IMG/VR virus record: IMGVR_UViG_3300048597_000066
Span: 1 to 35,701 of that record
Reading direction: 5' to 3' (one strand)
Length of the DNA stretch: 35,701 nucleotides
From: a virus
A program made the translations under genes and the position numbers. This document shows positions 4,151 through 18,586 of this stretch, one piece after another (position 1 is the stretch's first letter; each line of letters begins with the position of its first letter). The notes beneath the pieces were generated by a model that had not been told where the DNA came from, did no database searches, and saw only the letters and a list, made by a program, of their open reading frames with translations.

Positions 4151-5134
4151 TTACCGTGAAAGGGCATCAACCAGCGGATTTCCGTTGCGCTCCAGAATCT
4201 TTAGCATCCCCTCCTCGCCGGGGAAGACGACGAAGTTGCTAGTCGCGGTCGGCGCGGTCAGCTTCCCGCCAATGTGCGCGAGAGCCTTTTTCGCCTCTCG
4301 CTCTGTCGGGAATGCCCTGACCATGCCTGTAGGGCCAGTGACAAGCCATTGATTTGAGTTGCCGCCCCGCGATCCGCCGTCTAGGTAGCGGATGCCGGGG
4401 ATGCCTGCGGATCGCAAACTCTCAGAAAGCGCAGCCCTAGCGTCAACTCCGGCGCGAGTATTCGGGGCAAGTTCGTTGAACCAGCTTCCAAGCGGAGCGT
4501 GTTCTAGCGCACCGTTTTGGCTCCATGTCTCATATAACTTAGGCGACTTCGCCTGCAGCTTTTGGCGAATGATCGCTTGTGCCTCCGGCGTCTGCTGACT
4601 CAGCGGCTTATCCCAATCCAGCATCTTGGCGACTGCGGAGTCGGGGAGGTCTACTTTGTAGAGGTTGCCCGCTGGACGCTGAACCCCGTCTGTCATTTGC
4701 AACGCAGTAAGGCGCTTTCCTCCGCTGTATGACGACGCCACTTCCGGCGCTTCTGCCAAATACAACCCATGCCCATAAGCCTGCGCGCCTTCGCCCGTGC
4801 CAATCTTGCTGCTATCGAACTTGTCAAACTTGTGCGGGCTGCCGTGGTAAGTGATGATGTTGCGGATCGGAGCCGGCAGGCGCGAACCGACAGCCATCGC
4901 GGTCATGTCGGACAGGGACTTGGCGCCTTCCGTTGGGTCGGCCTCGCCGGTCAGGTATTGCGCGCCAAGCGCGGCCCCTCCAAGCGCGGCAATCAGCGGA
5001 TTAGGCGAGTAGGACATCGGTTCGCCGACCGCCTTTAGCAGCCCGCGCGATCCGCGTTGCTTGCGCAACTGGTCGGCCGCATAGCGCGTCGGGCCGGGAT
5101 TCATTAGCCCCGCCTCGAGCTTGTTAGCTTCCAT
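4151..5134 (-). CDS. polyvalent-type ADP-ribosyltransferase-like protein
   Basis: 327 residues. The centre and C-terminal half carry the pattern of the ART domain found in phage polyvalent proteins. There is an H-containing strand YHGSPHKFDKFD (residues 96-107), a GHGLYLAE motif (121-128), a block AGIPGIRYLDGGS (243-255), and a final strand FVVFPGEEGMLKILERNG (301-318) that would supply the catalytic acidic residue. Such enzymes move ADP-ribose from NAD to host targets. The N-terminal 90 residues (GGAALGAQYLTGEADPTEG) look like a linker or packaging region. The gene lies 3 bases after the TerL stop and 4 bases before the portal start. A late, virion-associated effector is therefore plausible by analogy with T4 Alt; that is inference. 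An insertion at about 262-298 splits the last ART elements. Confidence 0.75.
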   Translation of the reverse strand: MEANKLEAGLMNPGPTRYAADQLRKQRGSRGLLKAVGEPMSYSPNPLIAALGGAALGAQYLTGEADPTEGAKSLSDMTAMAVGSRLPAPIRNIITYHGSPHKFDKFDSSKIGTGEGAQAYGHGLYLAEAPEVASSYSGGKRLTALQMTDGVQRPAGNLYKVDLPDSAVAKMLDWDKPLSQQTPEAQAIIRQKLQAKSPKLYETWSQNGALEHAPLGSWFNELAPNTRAGVDARAALSESLRSAGIPGIRYLDGGSRGGNSNQWLVTGPTGMVRAFPTEREAKKALAHIGGKLTAPTATSNFVVFPGEEGMLKILERNGNPLVDALSR

Positions 5135-5137
5135 CGC

Positions 5138-6484
5138 TCATCCCATCCAACTCAGCTCGCCCGGCATCGCGTGAATGCCCGCCTTTTCCTCGGCCGCCTT
5201 CGGCGCTTTCTCGCCCTTGACCATGCCGGGGAACAGTTCGGCTAGCACCCAAATCCAGGCGTCGGCGCGGTTCGGACTGCCCTTGCCGGTATAGCCCGCG
5301 GTGCTAAAGGCGGTCAATTCGTCCTCAAGGTCGCGGAATACGCCCGCATGGCGAATCTTGCCCGATTCGTAGAGGGATGAAAACGGCTCGGCGCGGACAG
5401 CCTTGCCGCGGGTCGCCTTGACCGCCTTGTAAGGCGTGCGCGGCCGTGCTGTCTGGATTGTAAAGCGCACCATTTCGCCGCCGAAATTGTCCTCGCCGAC
5501 TACCAGGTCGGCCGCGTGCCGCTCAAACGCGCTGGTCGCCACCTTGCCCCATGTTCCGGGGCCGGCTTTTACGGTCACGTCCTCGAGCAAATAGGCATTG
5601 CCGTCTGTGCCCAGGCCGCCAACGACGATCCCGATCGCGTCATTGTCCGCGTTGTCAGTGTCGCCCGATCCGCTCGGATCAACGCCCACGCAAATCCGCA
5701 CCATGTCGGGCAGCTTCCCATCGGTCACGCGCCAGCGGTCGATTATCTCGTCAGCAAATAGCGCATTCGGCGTCGCGTCGGCAAACTCGCCGCGCAGGAA
5801 TCGCTTTTGCAGCCGGCCGGACAAGCTGCGCAGCGCGTCCAAGTAGCCGGCCGCCAAGTTCTCGGCGTTGTCCTCGGGGTTGATCTGGAAATGCGCGTAA
5901 TCGTCGGGGTGCGATAGCGGCGCTTTCGTGTCCGGGTCGCGCTTCTCGACGAACAGGCGATATGACCAATGCGCCTTACTCGGCGGATTGCAGTCGTAAT
6001 ACATGCGCGGCCGCAATGGCGCCTCGCGTCCGTCAATGATCTGCGTCGCGCGCTGCGCCAGTCGAGTGACCGCAATGTGCCGCGATCCCTGCGGAATCTG
6101 GCTGCACTCGTTTAGGTAGATCGTGCCGTGTTCCTGGCCGAGAATCTTCTCGGTGCGCTCTTTGTCATCAAGGCCGCCGAACCATATTTGCGAGTCGTTG
6201 CTGAACCGCGCGAACCAATCCGTTTTGTCGACGTGGTAGTCGATTTGCGGGAAGCACAATTCCATGACCTTCGGGAAGGTGTCCAAAACAATCGACGCCT
6301 TCACATGATTGAACCGGAACCGCAGGATTGCGTGCCGCGACTTGGCCGCCTTGATTGCGCGCATGGCGACGGCGCGCGTCAGCAGAAACGTTTTGCCGCT
6401 GCGGCTGCCGCCGAAAAGCATTATGTGCGTCGCGTCGCCAGCGAGGATGCGTTGCGCCTCTTGCTGGCGAGGCGTGAGCTTCAC
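5138..6484 (-). CDS. terminase large subunit (ATPase/nuclease)
   Basis: 448 residues. This is the motor that pumps DNA into the prohead and cuts the concatemer. A Walker A-type loop GGSRSGKT lies at residues 25-32 and a Walker B with catalytic Glu (TIYLNEC, E126) at 121-127. The nuclease half begins with VGVDPSGSG (267-274, first metal-binding Asp269), followed by VVGEDNFGGEMV, which fits an RNase H-like nuclease. The length is normal for P22-like or Terminase_6-type subunits. The start overlaps the small subunit stop by 4 bases (6481-6484), giving translational coupling. P22-like packaging would be headful from a pac site; no pac site was identified here. Confidence 0.95.
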   Translation of the reverse strand: MKLTPRQQEAQRILAGDATHIMLFGGSRSGKTFLLTRAVAMRAIKAAKSRHAILRFRFNHVKASIVLDTFPKVMELCFPQIDYHVDKTDWFARFSNDSQIWFGGLDDKERTEKILGQEHGTIYLNECSQIPQGSRHIAVTRLAQRATQIIDGREAPLRPRMYYDCNPPSKAHWSYRLFVEKRDPDTKAPLSHPDDYAHFQINPEDNAENLAAGYLDALRSLSGRLQKRFLRGEFADATPNALFADEIIDRWRVTDGKLPDMVRICVGVDPSGSGDTDNADNDAIGIVVGGLGTDGNAYLLEDVTVKAGPGTWGKVATSAFERHAADLVVGEDNFGGEMVRFTIQTARPRTPYKAVKATRGKAVRAEPFSSLYESGKIRHAGVFRDLEDELTAFSTAGYTGKGSPNRADAWIWVLAELFPGMVKGEKAPKAAEEKAGIHAMPGELSWMG

Positions 6485-7417: not shown

Positions 7418-7873
7418 CTAGAATCCGGTCGTTGCCTTTGTGCATCCCGCGGCGGCCGTAGTCGTGTGAACCCACGTCAGTTGCGCGTCGGTCAGGGTCG
7501 GCGTGGCGGTCACAATGCAGCCGTTGACTGCGGCGCTGCCCGTAATGACAAGCGCGGCCGTGCCGGTTGTAAAGGTGACGGTGCCGAACTTAGGAACCGG
7601 AAGCGCGGCGATGTCAGTAAACCCGCCCGAAGTCAGTTCGGCCAGCGAGTCACAGGCGGCGACGTTGTTGCTGTTGTTCTGCAGGCATTCGGCAATCGAG
7701 AGCTTGAGCGCGCCGAGCGATGACACGTTGTCCGCCCACCTGGCGCGGGCCGTGTATTGCTGATACTGCGGGATGGCGATTGCGGCGAGGATCGCGATGA
7801 TCGCAACGACGATCATCAATTCAATCAAGGTAAATCCGCGCGAGGTTTGATGCGTAATGCGTTGATGTTTCAC
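7418..7873 (-). CDS. type IV prepilin (major-pilin-like), phage-encoded
   Basis: 151 residues from GTG at 7873, with GGAG 8 bases upstream. The leader [13 protein letters not shown] is short and basic and ends in Gly13. It is followed by the canonical prepilin motif with Phe14 as mature +1 and Glu18 as the conserved Glu5 (GFTLIELM). A 20-residue hydrophobic helix follows ([17 protein letters not shown]), then a globular part with four Cys (63, 74, 119, 144). The last pair is placed like the C-terminal disulphide loop of major pilins. PilD-type peptidase would cleave and methylate it, and it would enter the inner membrane or host pilus. No other pilus genes are present, so it must rely on host machinery. 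A longer ORF starting at 8059 runs back through hairpins and is less likely. Confidence 0.9.
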
Positions 7874-7881
7874 GTGAAACG
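7866..7881. promoter_or_regulatory. parS-like ParB-binding palindrome over the pilin start codon
   Basis: The plus strand reads TGTTTCACGTGAAACG, matching 15 of 16 bases of the bacterial chromosomal parS consensus TGTTNCACGTGAAACA; the inner 14 bases form a perfect palindrome. The central CACGTG contains the GTG start codon of the prepilin (7871-7873), and the site covers the whole RBS-to-start spacer. No ParB or ParA gene is visible in the window, so binding would have to come from host ParB. One such near-match is expected by chance about 4 in 10,000 times in 35 kb of random sequence. Confidence 0.75.
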
Positions 7882-7888
7882 CTCCGAA

Positions 7889-7915
7889 GTTAAGAAAATG
7901 CCCGCCGAAGCGGGC
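7889..7915 (-). terminator. UUCG-loop intrinsic terminator or attenuator before the pilin gene
   Basis: On the minus strand a perfect 6-bp stem GCCCGC/GCGGGC (7915-7910 and 7905-7900) closes a TTCG tetraloop. It is followed by ATTTTCTTAAC (7899-7889). The C(UUCG)G loop and T-rich tail are typical of rho-independent terminators. It lies only 4 bases before the pilin RBS, so there is no room for a promoter after it. The pilin must be read by read-through, antitermination or an attenuated leader. Confidence 0.7.
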
Positions 7916-7924
7916 AAAGCCGAA

Positions 7925-7938
7925 CGCGCCGAAGCGCG
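7925..7938 (-). other. second UUCG-loop hairpin in the pilin leader
   Basis: A 5-bp stem CGCGC/GCGCG closes another TTCG loop on the minus strand (7938-7934, loop, 7929-7925), 9 bases upstream of the terminator-like hairpin. It has no T-tract of its own. Two UUCG hairpins in a row make the leader unusually structured. Confidence 0.55.
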
Positions 7939-7961
7939 CCGGCAGCGGAGACACCGGGCGA

Positions 7962-7990
7962 AGTCTGCGCGTCGTCAGTTTCGCTGTCAA
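7962..7990 (-). promoter_or_regulatory. possible sigma70-type promoter for pilin leader
   Basis: On the minus strand a perfect -35 box TTGACA (7990-7985) is followed after 17 bases by CAGACT (7967-7962), which matches only three of six bases of TATAAT. The -35 box overlaps the stop codon of the VRR-NUC gene. If used, the transcript would start near 7955 and pass through the twin UUCG hairpins before reaching the pilin. The weak -10 makes this tentative. Confidence 0.3.
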
Positions 7991-8337
7991 TCTTTGGCCG
8001 CCATCAAATACCCGCGAATTTCGGCGATTGCGTCCTCGGCCGAACGGCAGACAACGCACTTGTTGCCTTGCATCATAAGCGCCGCAATCGTCTGCCGCTG
8101 TTCCATCGAAAGCACGCCGGCGCTGGATTTCATTTCGATGCGCAGGCTATGCCAGCCGCCGCGGGCGACAGGCAGGCACAGATCGGGGATTCCCGGCCGC
8201 AGACCTTCGGCGCGCATCCGGTTGGCGTGCTTGGCGGCGGCGATCCGGTCTTTGCCGTAATACGAGCCGTTCGGGATCGCGTACAGGGTCAGCAGTTCCG
8301 GCCACTGGCGGCATGCCAGCGCCGCCCAGGCCACCAC
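7987..8337 (-). CDS. VRR-NUC domain nuclease (start uncertain)
   Basis: This encodes a single VRR-NUC domain of the PD-(D/E)XK nuclease superfamily. It has a helical N-terminal part ([22 protein letters not shown]), then [28 protein letters not shown] with the catalytic Asp and the Glu-x-Lys of the EMK motif. [29 protein letters not shown] follows as the usual C-terminal half. Stand-alone phage versions are proposed to cut branched or replicating DNA. The coordinates use GTG at 8337 (AGG at a 5-base spacing), but the family-like helix [11 protein letters not shown] is already readable from 8361. The true start may therefore be an unusual codon upstream, or the whole open frame back to 8577. 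The stop overlaps a candidate promoter for the pilin. Confidence 0.8.
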
Positions 8338-8857: not shown

Positions 8858-9751
8858 TTATTGCGTCACTTCGTCGTAGGCTTTGATGAAGGCCGCCCCG
8901 AGCTGCGGCACAATGGCGTTCCCGAAGGCGCGCAGTCGTCCCACTCGGCCGGGTATCCCATAAGCCAGCGGGAAAAGGCCGGGTTGAGTTGGCCGCGCTT
9001 TTCCATCGGAGCAGGCGAGCCATTCGAGTTCAGCCCAAGGGTTAGCTTCACCTGCGAGCCCAACATCGCTTGCATCTTCGCGCCCGGCAAGCCCGCCGCG
9101 TCCTCGTTCGCGCTCGGTGTGAGCCATGACGCCAGTGTTGCTGCCATGCCAAGCGTCAGGCCAAATCCGTTGCCGTTGATCCGCTTCGCCTTCACTTCCT
9201 CCCGCCGTTCCTGCCATCGCATATCGGTGTCGTTCTGCGGCCCGCTGTTGGGCGTCGGCCATCCACCACAGCCGCTGCCGTCGGTGGGGAGCGCCGACGC
9301 TGCAAGCCGGCAAATCTGCCGCCGCAACGGCGTAGCCTGCGCCTTCCAGGTCAGCACAAACATGGTCGAGCCACGCGAGGCCAGCCGCTCCTGCAACCTG
9401 TTCGCCAAAGACTGTTGCAGGGCGACACTCGCGGATGAGGCGGAAGAACGCAGGCCATAGGTGGCGCTCATCTTCTGAGCCACGCTGCTTGCCTGCGGTG
9501 CTGAACGGCTGACAGGGGCAAGAGCCTGTCCAAACAGGTCGGTCGTCAGGCCATCCGGCGAGGCGCAGGGCGAGGGACCATCCGCCGATTCCTGCGAAGA
9601 AGTGGCATTGGGTATAGCCGCGCAGGTCGTCGGGGCCGACATCGACGATGCTGCGCTCGTCAACATCCCCGGCGGCGATGTGTCCTGCGGCGATGAGGTT
9701 TCGGAGCCACTGGGCGGCATAAGGGTCGATTTCGTTGTAATAAGCAGACAT
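8858..9751 (-). CDS. C5 cytosine DNA methyltransferase
   Basis: 297 residues from ATG at 9751, with GAGG 7 bases upstream. It transfers a methyl group from S-adenosylmethionine to cytosine C5. Motif I FFAGIGG lies at 51-57, motif [11 protein letters not shown] at 77-84 with catalytic Cys80, a variant motif VI GEQV at about 116-119, and motif VIII HRRQRLW at 156-162. Motif X FGNAIVPQ comes close to the end (276-283). The target-recognition region between VIII and X is short, so this is a compact phage-type enzyme. No cognate restriction enzyme is beside it, so protection from host restriction or epigenetic control is more likely than an R-M pair. A second long frame is open inside the same DNA (see 8866-9774). 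Confidence 0.93.
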
Positions 9752-9774
9752 TCGGGAGCCTCGGCCGTCGTCAT
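8866..9774 (-). other. overlapping open frame inside the methyltransferase gene
   Basis: An uninterrupted 302-codon frame lies on the same strand, shifted relative to the methyltransferase and covering almost its whole length. Its translation contains a pattern I recall from many phage annotations. The pieces are [42 protein letters not shown] and [19 protein letters not shown]. Aligned with the methyltransferase frame, these blocks are the shifted reading of motif VIII and flanking conserved DNA. The conservation could therefore be a by-product of methyltransferase constraint. It is listed as an open frame, not as a proven gene. Confidence 0.3.
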
Positions 9775-10359
9775 TGCAGCCGGCGCGGTCCAGAAGCCGC
9801 CAGAAGCGCCGAAACCTTCGGGTGGATGTCTGACCCGTCCGGAAGTTGCAAAGCGTACAGCGCGGCTGTACGGGCCGGCAAAAGGCCAATTTCGACGGCA
9901 TGGGCCAACGCCGCCGACCGGCCGCGCTCATCCCACCCCCAGGACGGCCATGCGTGAACCGGAATCCCGGCCGCCCGGTTCCGCGCCACTTCGGACTGGT
10001 AGCGGTCGATAAAGGCCCGCCGCGCCGCAACCGGGTCGCCATGCTCGAGCAGCGGCGCCGCGATGCCGTAAGCCTTGGACATTTCGTCAGTCCAGATGAC
10101 CGAGGCGTTTTCGTCCCGCGGGATCATGGACCAGGCTTCGTCGGCGGTCGGGCGGCCGTCTTTGGCGGTCAGGATGGCGATTATGTCGGCCGGCGTCGGC
10201 GCGAACTTGCCAAGCGTGACGTGTTCGGCGAGGGCCGCCTCGACCGACTCAAGCTCGAAACGCTGCATGACCTTCCACCAAATCGCGACCGCCACGTCCG
10301 ACCGCTCGCGGCCATACAGGCCCATGACGCCGGACACGATGTCGACGAACCGCCGATAA

Positions 10360-10373
<14 letters not shown>
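9771..10373 (-). CDS. replication protein, probable helicase loader-like
   Basis: About 200 residues from ATG at 10373, chosen because AGGAGG sits 7 bases upstream. The N-terminal 75 residues are typical of small helical phage replication proteins encoded after a DUF1376-type gene: [18 protein letters not shown], then [22 protein letters not shown], then [13 protein letters not shown]. They resemble helicase-loader or lambda-P-like N-terminal domains. The rest ([27 protein letters not shown]) is less informative. No Walker motif is present, so it is not a DnaC-type ATPase. It overlaps the upstream replication gene by 14 bases, which supports co-expression. The phage has no visible DNA polymerase or helicase and would recruit the host replisome. 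Confidence 0.6.
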
Positions 10374-11175
<802 letters not shown>

Positions 11176-13514: not shown

Positions 13515-13693
13515 ACGCATCCGATCTGCTGCGGCAGATTTCCGCGCCGCCGTCCGAAATCGTACTTGTCCGCATTGATCCCGATCCGGCGCAAGTCGAT
13601 CGCATTCGCGCGAAGGTCGAAGCGGCGAAAGCTGCGCTCGGCGATAAGTACCTGTGTCATCAATCTAACCGCATCCAAAGGAAAACAGCGTGA
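13511..13693 (+). CDS. 60-residue hypothetical protein
   Basis: Starts at ATG 13511 inside the stop of the membrane peptide (ATGA) and ends by overlapping the GTG of the RecT-like gene. It contains DLLRQISAPPSEIVLVRIDP, then VDRIRAKVEAAKAALGDKYLCH, a beta-alpha pattern without a recognised motif. Its place directly before the recombination genes could hint at a helper role, but nothing in the sequence shows it. Confidence 0.6.
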   Translation: MNASDLLRQISAPPSEIVLVRIDPDPAQVDRIRAKVEAAKAALGDKYLCHQSNRIQRKTA

Positions 13694-14409
13694 GCAACAT
13701 CATTCCATTTCAGCAGCAGCAAGCATTGGCGGACGCATTCGTTAAGTCCGGCCTGTTCGGCATCAAAGACACGTCGCAAGCTCTTGCCCTGATGGCGCTA
13801 TGCGAGGCGGAAGGCTTGCACCCGGCAAAAGCGGTGCAGGAATATCACATTATCCAAGGCAAGCCGGCGCGCAAGGCTGATGCGGTCCTCGCGCGATTCC
13901 AGGCGGCCGGCGGTCGCGTGCAATGGGGCGCATACAGCGACACAGAAGTCGCCGGCACGTTTTCGCACCCGCAAGGCGGCAGCGTCGAAGTTCGATGGAC
14001 GATCGCCGACGCCAAGCGCATTGGACTGGCGGGTAAAGACAACTGGAAAAACTACCCGCGGGCGATGCTGCGCGCTCGCTGCATTAGCGAAGGCGTCCGC
14101 ACGGTTTTCCCCGGCGTCACGGTCGGAACATACACCGTCGAGGAATTGCAGGACATGACGCCCGCCCAGGTGCGCGACATGGGCGCGGTCGAAGTTGTGA
14201 CGCCGCCCGATCCTTGGACCGACGCGACGCGCGAAGCTGCCGCAGCGGCGGCCGGCGCCGGCATGACGGCATATACGCAATGGTGGAAAGCGCAGCCGGA
14301 AAGCTTCCGCGAGGCCGCTGTCGGCACCAGCACTCACGCGGACATGAAAGCCAAGGCGTCCGAGGCGACCAAAGCGGTACAGGAGGCCAGCGCCAATGCT
14401 AATGATTGA
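13690..14409 (+). CDS. RecT-type single-strand annealing protein
   Basis: 239 residues from GTG at 13690, overlapping the previous stop. The pattern is one I associate with RecT-superfamily recombinases. It has a helical N-terminal part with EAEGLHPAKAVQEYHIIQGK, then ARKADAVLARFQAAGG. Next is the conserved core TIADAKRIGLAGKDNWKNYP, RAMLRARCISEGVRTVFPG and TVEELQD. These proteins coat single strands made by a partner exonuclease and anneal homologous DNA. The exonuclease gene follows with a 14-base overlap, giving a Red-like pair. The C-terminal 70 residues are Ala-rich and variable, as usual in the family. Confidence 0.75.
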   Translation: MSNIIPFQQQQALADAFVKSGLFGIKDTSQALALMALCEAEGLHPAKAVQEYHIIQGKPARKADAVLARFQAAGGRVQWGAYSDTEVAGTFSHPQGGSVEVRWTIADAKRIGLAGKDNWKNYPRAMLRARCISEGVRTVFPGVTVGTYTVEELQDMTPAQVRDMGAVEVVTPPDPWTDATREAAAAAAGAGMTAYTQWWKAQPESFREAAVGTSTHADMKAKASEATKAVQEASANAND

Positions 14410-15016
14410 CCCTGCGTCACCTGAATGGATCATGTCGCGGAAAGGTTGCCTTACCGGCTCGCGCATGGCCGCGGCGATGAGCTTCCGCAAAGACGGCAAG
14501 GAATCCGCCGAGCGCGAAAAGCTGAAAATCGAACTTCTCGCCGAGCGCATGACCGATATCGCCGTCGATCATTACGTTACGCCCGCGATGCAATGGGGAC
14601 TTGACCACGAAGCCGACGCGATCCGCGCCTATGAGTCAGTCAGCGGCAACATTGTTGCGCCGGCCGGCTATATCCCGCATCCGCACATTGAACATTTCGG
14701 CGCGACACCCGACGGCCTAATCGACGATGACGGCGTATTCGAGGCAAAGTGCCCGACTACTCCGACGCATTTGCGCTGGATTCTCGCTGGCGAAGTGCCT
14801 GGCGAATACCGGCCGCAAATGATCGTCGAAATGCTGTGCGCGCGGCGCCGGTTTGCGGACTTTGTTTCATACGATCCGCGCATGCCTGCGAAGCGGCGGC
14901 TATTCGTCCGGCGCTACGAACCGAAGGCCGAGGAAATCGCCGCGGTCGAATCTGCGGCGGTTAAATTCCTTGCGGAACTTGATGCAATGTTTTACGCTGT
15001 CGTGGAGGGCAACTGA
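14396..15016 (+). CDS. YqaJ/lambda-type 5'-3' exonuclease
   Basis: 206 residues. It begins with the typical region SPEWIMSRKGCLTGSRMAAA (family R..-.-GxTxS). The middle has AMQWGLDHEADAIRAYE. The active-site block FGATPDGLIDDDGVFEAKCP follows, with the Asp of PDG and Glu-x-Lys of the FEAKCP motif, and then EYRPQMIVEMLCA with the family Gln. It belongs to the PD-(D/E)XK class and would digest one strand of duplex DNA to feed the RecT-like protein. An alternative start is ATG at 14402. It overlaps both neighbours, and its stop touches the next ATG. Confidence 0.9.
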   Translation: MLMIDPASPEWIMSRKGCLTGSRMAAAMSFRKDGKESAEREKLKIELLAERMTDIAVDHYVTPAMQWGLDHEADAIRAYESVSGNIVAPAGYIPHPHIEHFGATPDGLIDDDGVFEAKCPTTPTHLRWILAGEVPGEYRPQMIVEMLCARRRFADFVSYDPRMPAKRRLFVRRYEPKAEEIAAVESAAVKFLAELDAMFYAVVEGN

Positions 15017-15246
15017 TGGCCGCCGAAGTTCTGAGCGCGTTTTACTGGCGCGAGCAAATGGCGCCGATTACCGGCCGGCCTGAATATCGGCCGAAGCCGC
15101 CAGCGCGGCGTAAGTCTGCGGAGGCGGAAGCGTTGCGGCGGCGCGTTGTGGCGTTGATCGGTGCCGGGATATCGACGGCGGACATAGCGCGCGAGATTGG
15201 ATGTTCGCAGAGGTATATCCAGGTATTAGCCAAGGGGAAGCCATGA
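15016..15246 (+). CDS. small helix-turn-helix protein
   Basis: 76 residues. A basic N-terminal arm (RPKPPARRKSAEAEA) precedes a clear helix-turn-helix of the resolvase/HTH_38 kind (LRRRVVALIGAGISTADIAR, then EIGCSQRYIQVLAK). There is no further domain, so it is probably a DNA-binding regulator rather than a recombinase. It starts at the last base of the exonuclease stop and ends by overlapping the next gene's ATG. It could control the array of related genes that follows. Confidence 0.7.
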   Translation: MAAEVLSAFYWREQMAPITGRPEYRPKPPARRKSAEAEALRRRVVALIGAGISTADIAREIGCSQRYIQVLAKGKP

Positions 15247-15893
15247 CCGCCCACATCAACCGCAACCCCGAGGCTATCGCGCGCGTCCTTGGCGATGAGC
15301 TTCCGCCGCTGCCAAACGCTCCGCATCGGTTCGCCGTGCAAATAACGAACTCGGGCGAGCGGATGGACTACACCGCAAAAGACATGCGCGAATACGCCCT
15401 CGCCGCCGCCGCTCCTTACAAGGCGAGGGTCACGGAGCTGTTGCGCAGCCTTGAGGAGCTGCGGGAATTGCGGCTTAAATACAAACCTTACACGGACGCA
15501 TTTGAACGCGCCGAGAAAGCCGAAGCCGAAGTCGCTCAACACAAGGCGAGGATCAAAGAGTGGGAGGAAAAAGCCGCAAACTGGCTCGCTTCGCCAGAGG
15601 CAGCAAAGCAGTTTGCTGGATACCGCGAACTGGCGTCGCGCGCCAAGCGTGCCGAGGCCGAAGTCGAGCGGCTGTGCTCGCAGCTACCTGCTGAAATGCA
15701 GGAATGCACAATCCGATTTAAGGAGTGCGAGAAGGGGCACGGCTGGCTGACCGCTGACAACTGGATACAGCATGGTTGCCCGACGTGTGAAGTCGCCAAG
15801 CTGCGGGAGTTGCTGCGGGAAGTTAGCTGCCGAGCAACATTGCCGGATGGAATGATCGAGCGGATTCGCGCCGCACTCGTGGAGAAGCCATGA
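15243..15893 (+). CDS. coiled-coil protein with Cys pair
   Basis: 216 residues from ATG at 15243. A short N-terminal domain (INRNPEAIARVLGDELPPLP) is followed by a long charged coiled coil (ERAEKAEAEVAQHKARIKEW, then AKRAEAEVERLCSQL). A Cys-rich region comes last (CTIRFKECEKGHGW and HGCPTCEVAKLRELL), which may bind zinc. The end ERIRAALVEKP resembles the module ends seen in the following genes. It overlaps the next gene by 4 bases. This kind of mosaic, Ea22-like accessory protein is common in temperate proteobacterial phages; its function is unknown. Confidence 0.7.
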   Translation: MTAHINRNPEAIARVLGDELPPLPNAPHRFAVQITNSGERMDYTAKDMREYALAAAAPYKARVTELLRSLEELRELRLKYKPYTDAFERAEKAEAEVAQHKARIKEWEEKAANWLASPEAAKQFAGYRELASRAKRAEAEVERLCSQLPAEMQECTIRFKECEKGHGWLTADNWIQHGCPTCEVAKLRELLREVSCRATLPDGMIERIRAALVEKP

Positions 15894-16183
15894 CCTCACG
15901 CGATGAACTGCCGCAATTGATTGAGCGGCTGGAGGCGCATGCAGAATTACACGACAGCCTCGCGCAATACGATCTTGAGCAAGCACAGTGGGGAAACGAC
16001 TTGCGCAAAGCCGCCGCCACCCTCCGCAAGCTGGCAGAGCAGAAGCCGGTGGCGACCGTCGTGGACAACAATCAACCTGGCTGGCGAAACATCGTTGTGA
16101 CTGATCCGCACGTCACGCTCGATGTCGGAATGAAACTCTTCGCCCTACCAGTCGCCGCGCCAGCGCAGGAAAAGAAGCCATGA
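15890..16183 (+). CDS. modular accessory protein, array member 1
   Basis: 97 residues. It starts with MTSRDELPQLIERLEA, followed by a helical segment (KAAATLRKLAEQ). The short beta module is KPVATVVDNNQPGWRN, VTDPHVTLDVGMKLFALP, and the protein ends VAAPAQEKKP. The KPVA-to-(L)(F/Y)A-x-P module recurs in phage Ea22-like accessory proteins. The first 30 bases are nearly identical to those of the genes at 16180, 16742 and 17575, which shows duplication. The stop overlaps the next ATG. No enzymatic motif is present. Confidence 0.7.
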   Translation: MTSRDELPQLIERLEAHAELHDSLAQYDLEQAQWGNDLRKAAATLRKLAEQKPVATVVDNNQPGWRNIVVTDPHVTLDVGMKLFALPVAAPAQEKKP

Positions 16184-16749
16184 CCTCACGCGATGAACTG
16201 CTGCGGCTGGCGGAGCGGCTTGAGGCGGCTGCTGGAGGAAATGAATGCAGCCTTTGGGCAGAAGCCGCCACCGTGCTCCGAGAGATGCTAGAGCAGAAGC
16301 CGGTGGCGTATGTGAGGCGTCTAGATGAGCCAAGCCCGCACTGCATTACCGATATGAAATATCGAGCATGGAAAGACGCAGAAGATGGAGTGCAGTATCA
16401 GCAACTCTACGCCTTCCCCGTCGCCGCGCCGGCGACGTGGAAGTTCGACAAAACGTACTGCTCACAATGCGGCGGCGAGTTTGGGCCGGGGAATCATGGG
16501 TATTCGCATTGCGCGGGCCACGCGCCAGCGCAGGTACAGGCCATCGCAGACGGCGCAGACCTCTACGCCGCCCCTGTTCCTGCCGTCGATCTTGAGGCAA
16601 CACCAACGGCAGACGAACTAAAAGAACTGGCGATGCAGTACGCGCGCACAAAGAATCCCGAAGATTGGGACCGATTCGCAGAGAAAGCGCACGCAGTAGG
16701 TGCCGCCTTTGCCGCTCACTTGGACAAGCTAGGAGGGAAGAATGACTGA
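16180..16749 (+). CDS. modular accessory protein, array member 2 (zinc-ribbon-like)
   Basis: 189 residues. The N terminus MTSRDELLRLAERLEAAAGG and the segment AATVLREMLEQKPVAYV repeat those of member 1. A longer module ends YQQLYAFPVAAPA. It adds a Cys/His cluster TYCSQCGGEFGPGNHGYSHC that could bind zinc, then a second end module QAIADGADLYAAPVPAV. An acidic C-terminal helix domain (ELKELAMQYARTKNPEDWDR) follows. It overlaps member 3 by 8 bases, with GGAGG before the next ATG. It looks like a fusion of one copy of the common head with extra domains. Its function is unknown. Confidence 0.7.
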   Translation: MTSRDELLRLAERLEAAAGGNECSLWAEAATVLREMLEQKPVAYVRRLDEPSPHCITDMKYRAWKDAEDGVQYQQLYAFPVAAPATWKFDKTYCSQCGGEFGPGNHGYSHCAGHAPAQVQAIADGADLYAAPVPAVDLEATPTADELKELAMQYARTKNPEDWDRFAEKAHAVGAAFAAHLDKLGGKND

Positions 16750-17578
16750 CCGCGATGAACTGCTGCGGCTGGTTGAGCGCGGAACCGCCTACCTATCTGG
16801 CGGCGGGCTGTTCAACCCGGAGCTTGCCGACCATCAAGCGGTCAGCGAACTTGTGCGTGAATGTCGAGACGCACTCCGCGCGATAGCGGAGCAGAAGCTA
16901 GCGCACGATAACAGCGTTCAAGTTACCGTGCCGCATCCGATGTTAAGCCCGACGCACTACTGCAAGGACTGTGGCGCGCTCTGGCGGCAGAATGACGATT
17001 TTTCAGTATCGCTGCGATCTTCGCATCCATGCGAGGCGTGCGACAACGCGCCGGTTGGCGGGCAGTTATTCCCGCTAACCGAGATTCCGCTTCCTAGCAT
17101 GCCTCCCGTGAGCGTGCGGCCGTTCGGCTATCTCAAGCAAACATCGACCGAAAAGAACCCGCCGCACGGGTGGTCTGTTTGCTTCAAGGGCGGCGATGTG
17201 CCGATATTCACTGCACAGCAAATGGATCAACTGCGCAAAGAAGCAGAGCGCGCGTGGCGCGAAGTTGATGCCATCGCCAAAGAACGCGACGAGCACCACC
17301 GCTGGCGTAAGGAATTAGCAGACGATCTAGGCGAAGTCGAACGGCTGCGTGACGTGCTGGCGCGCACAGTAAACGCGCAAGAAGCGGAATTGCAGGCGCT
17401 TCGCAAGTTAGCGCATGCTTACGAAACGCTGCGCGCCGAAGCCGAGGAGTGGGAGTGCGACGGTCTAGGACTATGGGCGCAGCATGGATGGTGGGAACCA
17501 GTAGACGACGCGATGGAAGGACTTGACGTGCGGCAAGAGCCGACCCCGATGGAACCACATCAATCTGGTTTGTTATGA
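16742..17578 (+). CDS. modular accessory protein, array member 3 (Cys cluster and coiled coil)
   Basis: 278 residues. The head MTDRDELLRLVERGTAY is a variant of the common start. It is followed by ECRDALRAIAEQKLA, then a Cys/His cluster (HYCKDCGALW and HPCEACDN), likely zinc binding. A segment RPFGYLKQTSTEKNPPHGWS follows, which resembles the KPVA/FGY display module. The second half is a long coiled coil (QLRKEAERAWREVDAIAKER, then EVERLRDVLARTVNAQEAEL). A strong RBS (GGAGGG) precedes the ATG. It overlaps member 4 by 4 bases. No known enzyme motif was found. Confidence 0.7.
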   Translation: MTDRDELLRLVERGTAYLSGGGLFNPELADHQAVSELVRECRDALRAIAEQKLAHDNSVQVTVPHPMLSPTHYCKDCGALWRQNDDFSVSLRSSHPCEACDNAPVGGQLFPLTEIPLPSMPPVSVRPFGYLKQTSTEKNPPHGWSVCFKGGDVPIFTAQQMDQLRKEAERAWREVDAIAKERDEHHRWRKELADDLGEVERLRDVLARTVNAQEAELQALRKLAHAYETLRAEAEEWECDGLGLWAQHGWWEPVDDAMEGLDVRQEPTPMEPHQSGLL

Positions 17579-18303
17579 CCTCACGCGATGAACTGCTGCG
17601 GCTGGCCGAATGGTGGGAGTCTTGGGGCACTCAAAGGCTTGGAACCACAGACGGACAGATGGCAGACAAGACCGCCGCCGCGATCCGCTCCCTGCTGGCG
17701 CAGAAGCCGGTAGGCAGGGTAAGAGTGTGGAACCGTGGCGGCTCCGGCGAGTTCAAAAGCGTCGAAGGGCTACACGCCATCGCAGATGGCACAGACCTCT
17801 ACACCGCCCCCTTTCCCGCTGTCGAGCAAGCTGCCCGAGCAGCGCCAGCGCAGGACGATGAGCCCGACATTGACGACTTGTCCCGCGCGAGCGCGCCGCT
17901 GAAAGTAACCGGGCATCTTGTGACAACGCGAGCAGCACCAGCGCAGCCAACCGATGTATTGCGCGATCACCGCGTTTTGCTCGCCACTTGCTTGCTTCAC
18001 CCGCTGCCGCTATCGCTTGCGAATGCGATCAAAGAAACGTTATCAGCGCCAGCGCAGCAGAGCGTCAGCGACCCGGACTGCAACTATCTGATGACTGCCG
18101 GGAATGTCTGTAACAAGTGCGGCCGCATTCACAGGGCAGCGCCAGCGCAGCCAGAGCCCTATCAGGTCGTCGCGGCTCAACGCGCCGAGCGAGAGAGAAA
18201 GAAGCTGAGCGACGTGATTGAGTATCAGATCCCAGCGACAGAAATGGATGCGCCCGTAGTTCACGTTGGGCCGGCGCAGCAGAACGGAGGAAAGAATGAC
18301 TGA
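17575..18303 (+). CDS. modular accessory protein, array member 4 (AAPAQ-linked)
   Basis: 242 residues. It starts again with MTSRDELLRLAEWWESWG, then AAIRSLLAQKPVGRVRVW and the end module HAIADGTDLYTAPFPAV, nearly as in member 2. The rest is a chain of short segments separated by AAPAQ-type linkers, five in all. One segment holds a Cys cluster (DPDCNYLMTAGNVCNKCGRIH). The mosaic build suggests repeated recombination at the linker DNA. No good RBS precedes its ATG, so it may depend on coupling to member 3. Its function is unknown. Confidence 0.7.
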   Translation: MTSRDELLRLAEWWESWGTQRLGTTDGQMADKTAAAIRSLLAQKPVGRVRVWNRGGSGEFKSVEGLHAIADGTDLYTAPFPAVEQAARAAPAQDDEPDIDDLSRASAPLKVTGHLVTTRAAPAQPTDVLRDHRVLLATCLLHPLPLSLANAIKETLSAPAQQSVSDPDCNYLMTAGNVCNKCGRIHRAAPAQPEPYQVVAAQRAERERKKLSDVIEYQIPATEMDAPVVHVGPAQQNGGKND

Positions 18304-18586
18304 CCGCGAACAGTTCGAGGCGTGGGTTAAATCTCGCGGCGGGGATTGCATGAAGAAAGGCACGCCGGGGGAGCCGATGTATCTATCGTCGATGACGCGA
18401 GAGTGGTTGGCAGCATGGCAAGCCGCCCGAGCAGCGCCAGAGCATCCAGCGGAGCGGGTGCTGTTGACGCGCAACACGTTGCGCGATGAGTCTGCGTGGC
18501 GAGAAAGCCGCCTGCCGTCGCCCCCAGAGAGTCTGCAGCGATACGGCCGCGAATACGCATGGGCCACCATCGAGCGGATCGAATGA
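18296..18586 (+). CDS. modular accessory protein, array member 5
   Basis: 96 residues from ATG at 18296, preceded by GGAGGAAAG. The head MTDREQFEAWVKSRGGD is a more distant form of the common start and matches the phage pattern in which a short domain ends WLAAWQAARAAPE. It ends with YGREYAWATIERIE. It is the last gene of the rightward operon and faces the leftward lysis operon tail-to-tail. Its function is unknown. Short proteins of this kind (FExW...WxAWQA) are frequent in proteobacterial phage accessory regions. Confidence 0.7.
   Translation: MTDREQFEAWVKSRGGDCMKKGTPGEPMYLSSMTREWLAAWQAARAAPEHPAERVLLTRNTLRDESAWRESRLPSPPESLQRYGREYAWATIERIE

Follow-up and report, generated by a model that had tools for sequence, protein, structure and literature searches.

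Mosaicism in phages is usually described as the swapping of genes at gene boundaries. The Ead/Ea22 genes of lambdoid phages have been reported to be mosaic and to occur as several variants per genome (PMC10834534; PMC8614690), and ea22 of lambda is reported to favour lysogeny. Fragments common to otherwise unrelated phage proteins have been described (Smug et al., 2023; PMC10684548), and recombination between short, conserved sequences that modules share at their flanks is cited as a route of module exchange in a passage of PMC2327257. Here, we analyse a 35.7 kb virus record (IMGVR_UViG_3300048597_000066, positions 1-35,701; hereafter the window), in which five adjacent genes, A-E, all lie on the plus strand, with neighbours overlapping by 4-8 bases (Table 1). 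Short DNA elements recur among these genes, and we consider it probable that the array was assembled by duplication and cassette replacement, with crossovers at short, near-identical DNA joints.

Blocks of DNA that are 80-97% identical among A, B, C and D alternate with unlike stretches, and 11 of 12 pairwise comparisons of the inter-block intervals align no better than shuffled DNA. Genes A, B and D start with ATGACCTCACGCGATGAACTG, and the head of C reads MTDRDELLRL (29 bp at 93% to B). The four head copies comprise 38 bp of near-identical DNA (82-92% to the copy in B), in which codons are identical at 6-10 of 9-12 shared residues, compared to 4.0-4.9 expected. A KPVA...LYxxP module is detected in B (1.1e-6), A (2.9e-4) and D (1.7e-3) by a 74-member profile (A4) built without window sequences; the same search did not find it in C (0.33) or E (0.19), and C retains only EQKLA of the module. 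The codons of its 5´ edge are CAG AAG CCG GTG GCG in A and B and have diverged in D (KPVG). The APAQ linker occurs five times as exact GCGCCAGCGCAG and once as GCACCAGCGCAG, confined within the window to A, B and D. Its prolines are encoded by CCA in six of six copies, a codon that the rest of the phage uses for 10% of its prolines. The preliminary description of this DNA spoke of five shuffled paralogues sharing an MT[SD]RDEL head, a KPVA/LYAxP module and AAPAQ linkers coded by recurring DNA. Three genes, A, B and D, are full paralogues in this sense. The head extends to C, where it is the sole one of these repeated elements present. In E we found an MTDRE start preceded by the joint, along with 25 of 27 bp of one D linker. 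Different Cys clusters and coiled coils, also described at that time, are found in B, C and D taken together (Cys clusters in all three, a coiled coil in C).

Scans of IMG/VR gave a sole relative of the array, a 17.7 kb contig (L110/L111) with a single such gene. Its architecture differs from that of the window, and significant DNA similarity is restricted to the heads, linkers and KPVA block and to pieces of g0, the gene preceding A (96% in blocks 15509-15534 and 15545-15567). The g0 counterpart is likewise positioned upstream of the head gene in this contig. A DNA search with the array among annotated phages gave no match, a scan with gene D no relative, an alignment of the head no relative among genomes, and tblastn of the head and module of B in phages nothing at E 10. 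The linker was also tried as a free-standing DNA motif and rejected: it gave 5 phage and 32 genome matches, and the reading frames suggest that all except L110 are due to chance.

The stretches between joints have relatives of their own. The finger of B, CSQCGGEFGPGNHGYSHC, is a mini-module of many phages and is found in unrelated contexts at 28 loci. Its homology is flanked by linker copies, one ending near 16435 and the other starting at 16522, and being bounded in this way is the pattern expected of insertion into a linker. The NPELADH stretch of C forms a separate gene adjoining PVA...LYxxP-type genes in L234, L236 and L238, and the CNYL..CNKCG.IH stretch of D is located 5´ of EQEPVAW within one protein in L130 (a weaker match, E=0.003). 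The earlier view that the array is more than simple duplication is thus borne out by the mostly unalignable inter-block sequence and by the finger placed between two linker copies.

As a separate observation, a CSQCGGEFGPG..GYSHC..H finger mini-module occurs in L002-L029 with DNA identity of up to 92% and in very different phage gene contexts.

The module belongs to a wider PVA...LYxxP family. At least 120 other stretches of phage contigs contain the EQEPVAW pattern, and a profile search places the module in prophages of 6 of 301, 21 of 295 and 10 of 298 genomes from three bacterial families, some of the matches being weak. Across 141 sites, similarity of the inner part is uncorrelated with similarity of the head (r=0.03) or the tail (r=0.075). 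For breakpoint mapping, we aligned the DNA of 20 pairs whose inner parts are similar and whose members come from different contigs. Homology begins 3-26 bp before PVA in 18 pairs and stops 15-55 bp after LY, again in 18 of the 20. In the pair L165/L008, 137 bp are common at 96% identity between unrelated flanks, L183/L201 resembles a single crossover at the 5´ edge, and L197/L238 one at the 3´ edge. The comparison to L110/L111 places breakpoints where the preliminary description had expected them, at shared heads and linkers; in the wider family they fall at the module edges. Module genes are adjacent in L190, L213 and L187, and several modules share a gene in L217 and L166; each of these loci repeats joint DNA of its own, mostly at 82-100% identity in L190, L213, L217 and L166. 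For the module family, the exchange of cassettes at short DNA joints has good support, and it is likely in the array of the window.

Repeated joints consisting of a gene end, a ribosome-binding site and the next ATG (e.g. GAAGCGGCCCACGGCATTAAGGAGTAAGACATG) were also observed between successive genes in L190 (760-2100) and L213 (6572-6628 and 6958-7014). Whole genes may be swapped at these joints, too.

The edges of the module are conserved in their codons. At 93 sites in contigs of 34-66% GC, collected with a search pattern open at the third positions of P, V and A, we counted GAG 87 times (46 expected), GTG 88 (27), GCG 77 (21), CTC 56 (14), TAC 82 (54) and the final CCA 83 (32). When sites were instead sampled by protein profile only, the core codons followed the same trend, with GAG in 19 of 21 cases, GTG in 24 of 35, GCG in 23 of 34, and CTC in 18 against 5.5 expected. 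The control motif WKNYPRAM of RecT has a weaker bias than the edges: the commonest codon has a share of 0.43-0.61 at Y, P, R and A, although K and N of the motif are also biased (0.82 and 0.90). A hairpin or inverted repeat between the edges (GGTGGCGTGG and CCACCCCACC) was considered and rejected: pairing of true partners scored 5.79 of 10, compared to 5.72 for shuffled partners, and 26 of 500 shuffles were as high. The complementarity of the edges is explained by codon choice. Two readings of the edges remain: they were spread and homogenised by recombination, or they are constrained by a function of the DNA.

We propose that small cassettes were put together to give this row of accessory genes, which are probably early and translationally coupled. 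The cassettes would include helical heads, Cys fingers and coiled coils, as well as a beta-rich PVA...LYxxP module whose inner part is hypervariable, and crossovers would occur at heads, module edges, APAQ linkers and gene-end/gene-start joints. The crossovers could be made by phage annealing recombination, with RecT and the exonuclease acting during co-infection or with prophages. The preliminary description correctly placed a RecT/exonuclease pair upstream of the array. Red recombines genes that are 22% diverged, RecET reportedly works with 5-13 bp of homology (PMC2327257), and the formation of mosaics is driven by Rad52-like recombinases, RecT among them (PMC3945230), which makes a role for the RecT/exonuclease pair plausible. 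In the seven RecT loci with a module gene, the gene is always on the same strand and within ~3.2 kb, a proximity that is suggestive but loose as a link. A more far-reaching version, in which the module edges are dedicated recombination joints, kept as near-constant coding DNA across very different GC contents for annealing recombinases to swap small domains of early proteins, strikes us as a long shot. If true, such joints would be a general currency of domain exchange among temperate phages of Proteobacteria.

Several points weigh against assembly by cassette replacement as outlined here. One inter-block interval (A compared to L111) did score above shuffles. The array itself has a single relative, and the strong statistics were obtained on cousins whose heads and linkers are different. 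Breakpoints are resolved to ~30-50 bp and conserved protein edges let BLAST extend past the edges; the expected codon counts are approximate, being derived from long open frames in all six frames. A module gene is present within the fetched stretch in only 7 of 80 RecT loci, leaving the tie to RecT loose, and the functional assignment of the array is based on map position alone. The RecT count also bears on the idea of a dedicated diversity generator, in which the phage's own RecT and exonuclease shuffle the array within the population and the joints are maintained for that purpose. RecT and YqaJ are encoded directly upstream, the joints are repeated in one operon and Rad52-like recombinases tolerate divergence (PMC3945230); with so few RecT-anchored loci having a module gene nearby, we still regard such a generator as improbable.

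Tandem duplication followed by divergence would be a simpler history: after the copying of a single ancestral gene, functional constraint kept the heads and the KPVA and APAQ stretches alike while the rest drifted. Adjacent genes on the same strand, shared heads in order and the existence of a single-copy cousin all fit. Protein constraint does not explain the codon identity, however, and the block-only similarity to L110/L111, the finger between two linker copies and the near-identical inner modules between unrelated heads and tails are left unexplained as well, such that this history is already disfavoured and we find it unlikely. The fixation of codons at both edges in phages of 34-66% GC, and the partial complementarity of these edges, could instead point to joints conserved as a functional DNA or RNA site (a hairpin, a binding site or a site-specific recombination site) with shuffling as a by-product. 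Clear covariation was not seen, edge pairing is hardly above that of shuffled partners and no recombinase was found tied to the edges, and we consider this quite unlikely. Finally, the array could consist of Ead/Ea22 proteins like those of lambdoid phages, given the same map position downstream of an annealing protein and an exonuclease, and Ea22 genes that are reported to be mosaic and multi-copy (PMC10834534). This appears very improbable: A-E have no match to PF13935 (E<=1) or phrog_250/368, whereas lambda Ea22 matches them (PF13935 at 1.1e-28), and blastp gave no match at E below 0.1.

Table 1. Genes, repeated DNA elements and cassettes in and upstream of the array (window coordinates).
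Feature	Position	Strand	Evidence
RecT-like single-strand annealing protein	13690..14409	+	phrog_561 E=4.7e-24; Pfam RecT
YqaJ-type exonuclease	14396..15016	+	Pfam YqaJ E=3.7e-20
Small helix-turn-helix (HTH) protein	15016..15246	+	phrog_6831 E=1.5e-5; HTH_23 below its cut-off
g0: ELPPLP...YTAKDM and predicted coiled coil	15243..15893	+	tblastn E=1.5e-5 to L110/L111 counterpart
Gene A: head, KPVA module, AAPAQ end	15890-16183	+	
Gene B: head, KPVA module, finger between two linker copies, D-like ADGADLYAAP block	16180-16749	+	
Gene C: array head joined to NPELADH cassette, Cys cluster, FTAQQM and predicted coiled coil	16742-17578	+	
Gene D: head, diverged KPVG module, four APAQ linkers, CNYL..CNKCG.IH cassette	17575-18303	+	
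Gene E: MTDRE start only	18296-18586	+	phrog_343; 25/27 bp of D linker
Head DNA block, copy 1	15890..15927	+	repeat search
Head DNA block, copy 2	16180..16217	+	89% to L111 over 44 bp (16176-16219)
Head DNA block, copy 3	16742..16779	+	repeat search
Head DNA block, copy 4	17575..17612	+	87% to L111 over 39 bp
KPVA 5´ module edge, gene A	16008..16054	+	repeat search
KPVA 5´ module edge, gene B	16262..16308	+	82% to L111 over 49 bp
KPVG 5´ module edge, gene D	17669..17715	+	86% to L111 over 43 bp
LFALPVAAPAQ 3´ module edge and linker, gene A	16136..16169	+	94% to L111 over 34 bp
LYAFPVAAPA 3´ edge, gene B, immediately 5´ of finger	16405..16434	+	
Linker GCGCCAGCGCAG, gene A	16157..16168	+	
Linker GCGCCAGCGCAG, gene B	16522..16533	+	
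Linker GCGCCAGCGCAG, gene D	17842..17853	+	
Linker GCACCAGCGCAG, gene D	17935..17946	+	
Linker GCGCCAGCGCAG, gene D	18046..18057	+	
Linker GCGCCAGCGCAG, gene D	18139..18150	+	
ADGADLYAAP block, gene B	16535..16589	+	85% to D 17771-17825 over 55 bp
ADGTDLYTAP block, gene D	17771..17825	+	
Gene-end/gene-start joint GGAGGGAAGAATGACTGACCGCGA (B/C)	16732..16755	+	23/24 bases as at D/E
Gene-end/gene-start joint GGAGGAAAGAATGACTGACCGCGA (D/E)	18286..18309	+	
Cys finger cassette, gene B (FDKTYCSQCGGEFGPGNHGYSHC..H)	16440..16516	+	74-92% DNA identity over 38-76 bp to other phages
NPELADH cassette, gene C	16769..16876	+	55-67% amino acid identity to L235-L239; 40% to L234 over longer stretch
CNYL...CNKCG.IH cassette, gene D, between APAQ linkers	18079..18132	+	40% amino acid identity, E=0.003

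Genes from RecT onward overlap by a few bases, which suggests that they are translationally coupled. For the function of the array proteins, our likeliest guess is an early role in host interaction or development, by analogy with lambda Ea22, which has such a role from an equivalent map position. The predicted structure of the window's own module is too poor for use (predicted local distance difference test, pLDDT, 66). That of a relative consists of a helix hairpin, three strands and a second helix hairpin (pLDDT 84) with an undefined domain arrangement (predicted template modelling score, pTM, 0.40). It has no match below E 1 in the PDB, and its convincing matches are to uncharacterised phage proteins only.

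Elsewhere in the window, structural genes are mostly on the minus strand, and the terminase is encoded at 5138-6484. An ADP-ribosyltransferase-like stretch (4151-5134, minus strand; ART-PolyVal E=2.3e-5, below the curated cut-off) adjoins a portal-sized gene. A type IV pilin-like open reading frame lies among phage genes at 7418-8059 (minus strand; _methyl 3e-9, TIGR02532 above cut-off) and is possibly a phage-carried pilin. A C-5 cytosine methylase at 8858-10042 (minus strand) matches part of the Pfam profile only (66-164 of 324), and an overlapping frame at 8866-9774 contains its apparent C-terminal part; the gene may be frameshifted or split. The DUF1376 protein at 10360-11175 (minus strand) has a QN simple repeat (QNQNQNQNQ...) that is a candidate for length variation.

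Compared to Ead/Ea22 of the lambda and lambdoid exo-xis region, the array has a similar setting, downstream of an annealing protein and an exonuclease and in the same operon direction. The order is bet, exo, orf60a/63/61 and ea22 in lambda, and RecT, YqaJ exonuclease, HTH protein, g0 and A-E on one strand in the window; both systems encode multi-domain proteins with coiled coils. By sequence, A-E are not members of Ead/Ea22. A further difference is that the related copies in the window, three to four in number, are immediate neighbours with overlapping frames, and that a unit of ~25-45 residues is swapped, the edge codons of which are fixed. The array resembles diversity-generating retroelements in the constant frame around a variable inner part and differs from them in that whole cassettes are replaced rather than mutagenized at adenines. 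No reverse transcriptase was found in a non-exhaustive scan of early-region and selected other proteins; template and variable repeats (TR/VR) were not searched for. Among the 74 module sequences, 20 match phrog_60 and 8 match phrog_660, two families without an assigned function that the window's own genes do not match.

In the literature on recombination at flanking sequences, the exchanged modules are mainly whole genes, whereas the joints here are inside genes, at module edges and linkers. The fragments of Smug et al. (2023; PMC10684548) are at least 50 residues long and belong to well-specified functional classes; the units here are shorter, occur in unnamed proteins and have breakpoints mapped at the DNA level. 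Edge sequence and cassette types offer a handle on a large class of unnamed phage genes. In place of a gene exchanged at its boundaries, the unit of exchange here is a cassette of 25-45 residues inside a gene, with edges whose codon fixation is far above the prediction from codon background in phages of 34-66% GC. Intragenic cassettes with such edges make an old question directly testable, namely whether phage annealing recombinases reshuffle, via short conserved joints, the domains of early proteins, which presumably are the first to meet the host.

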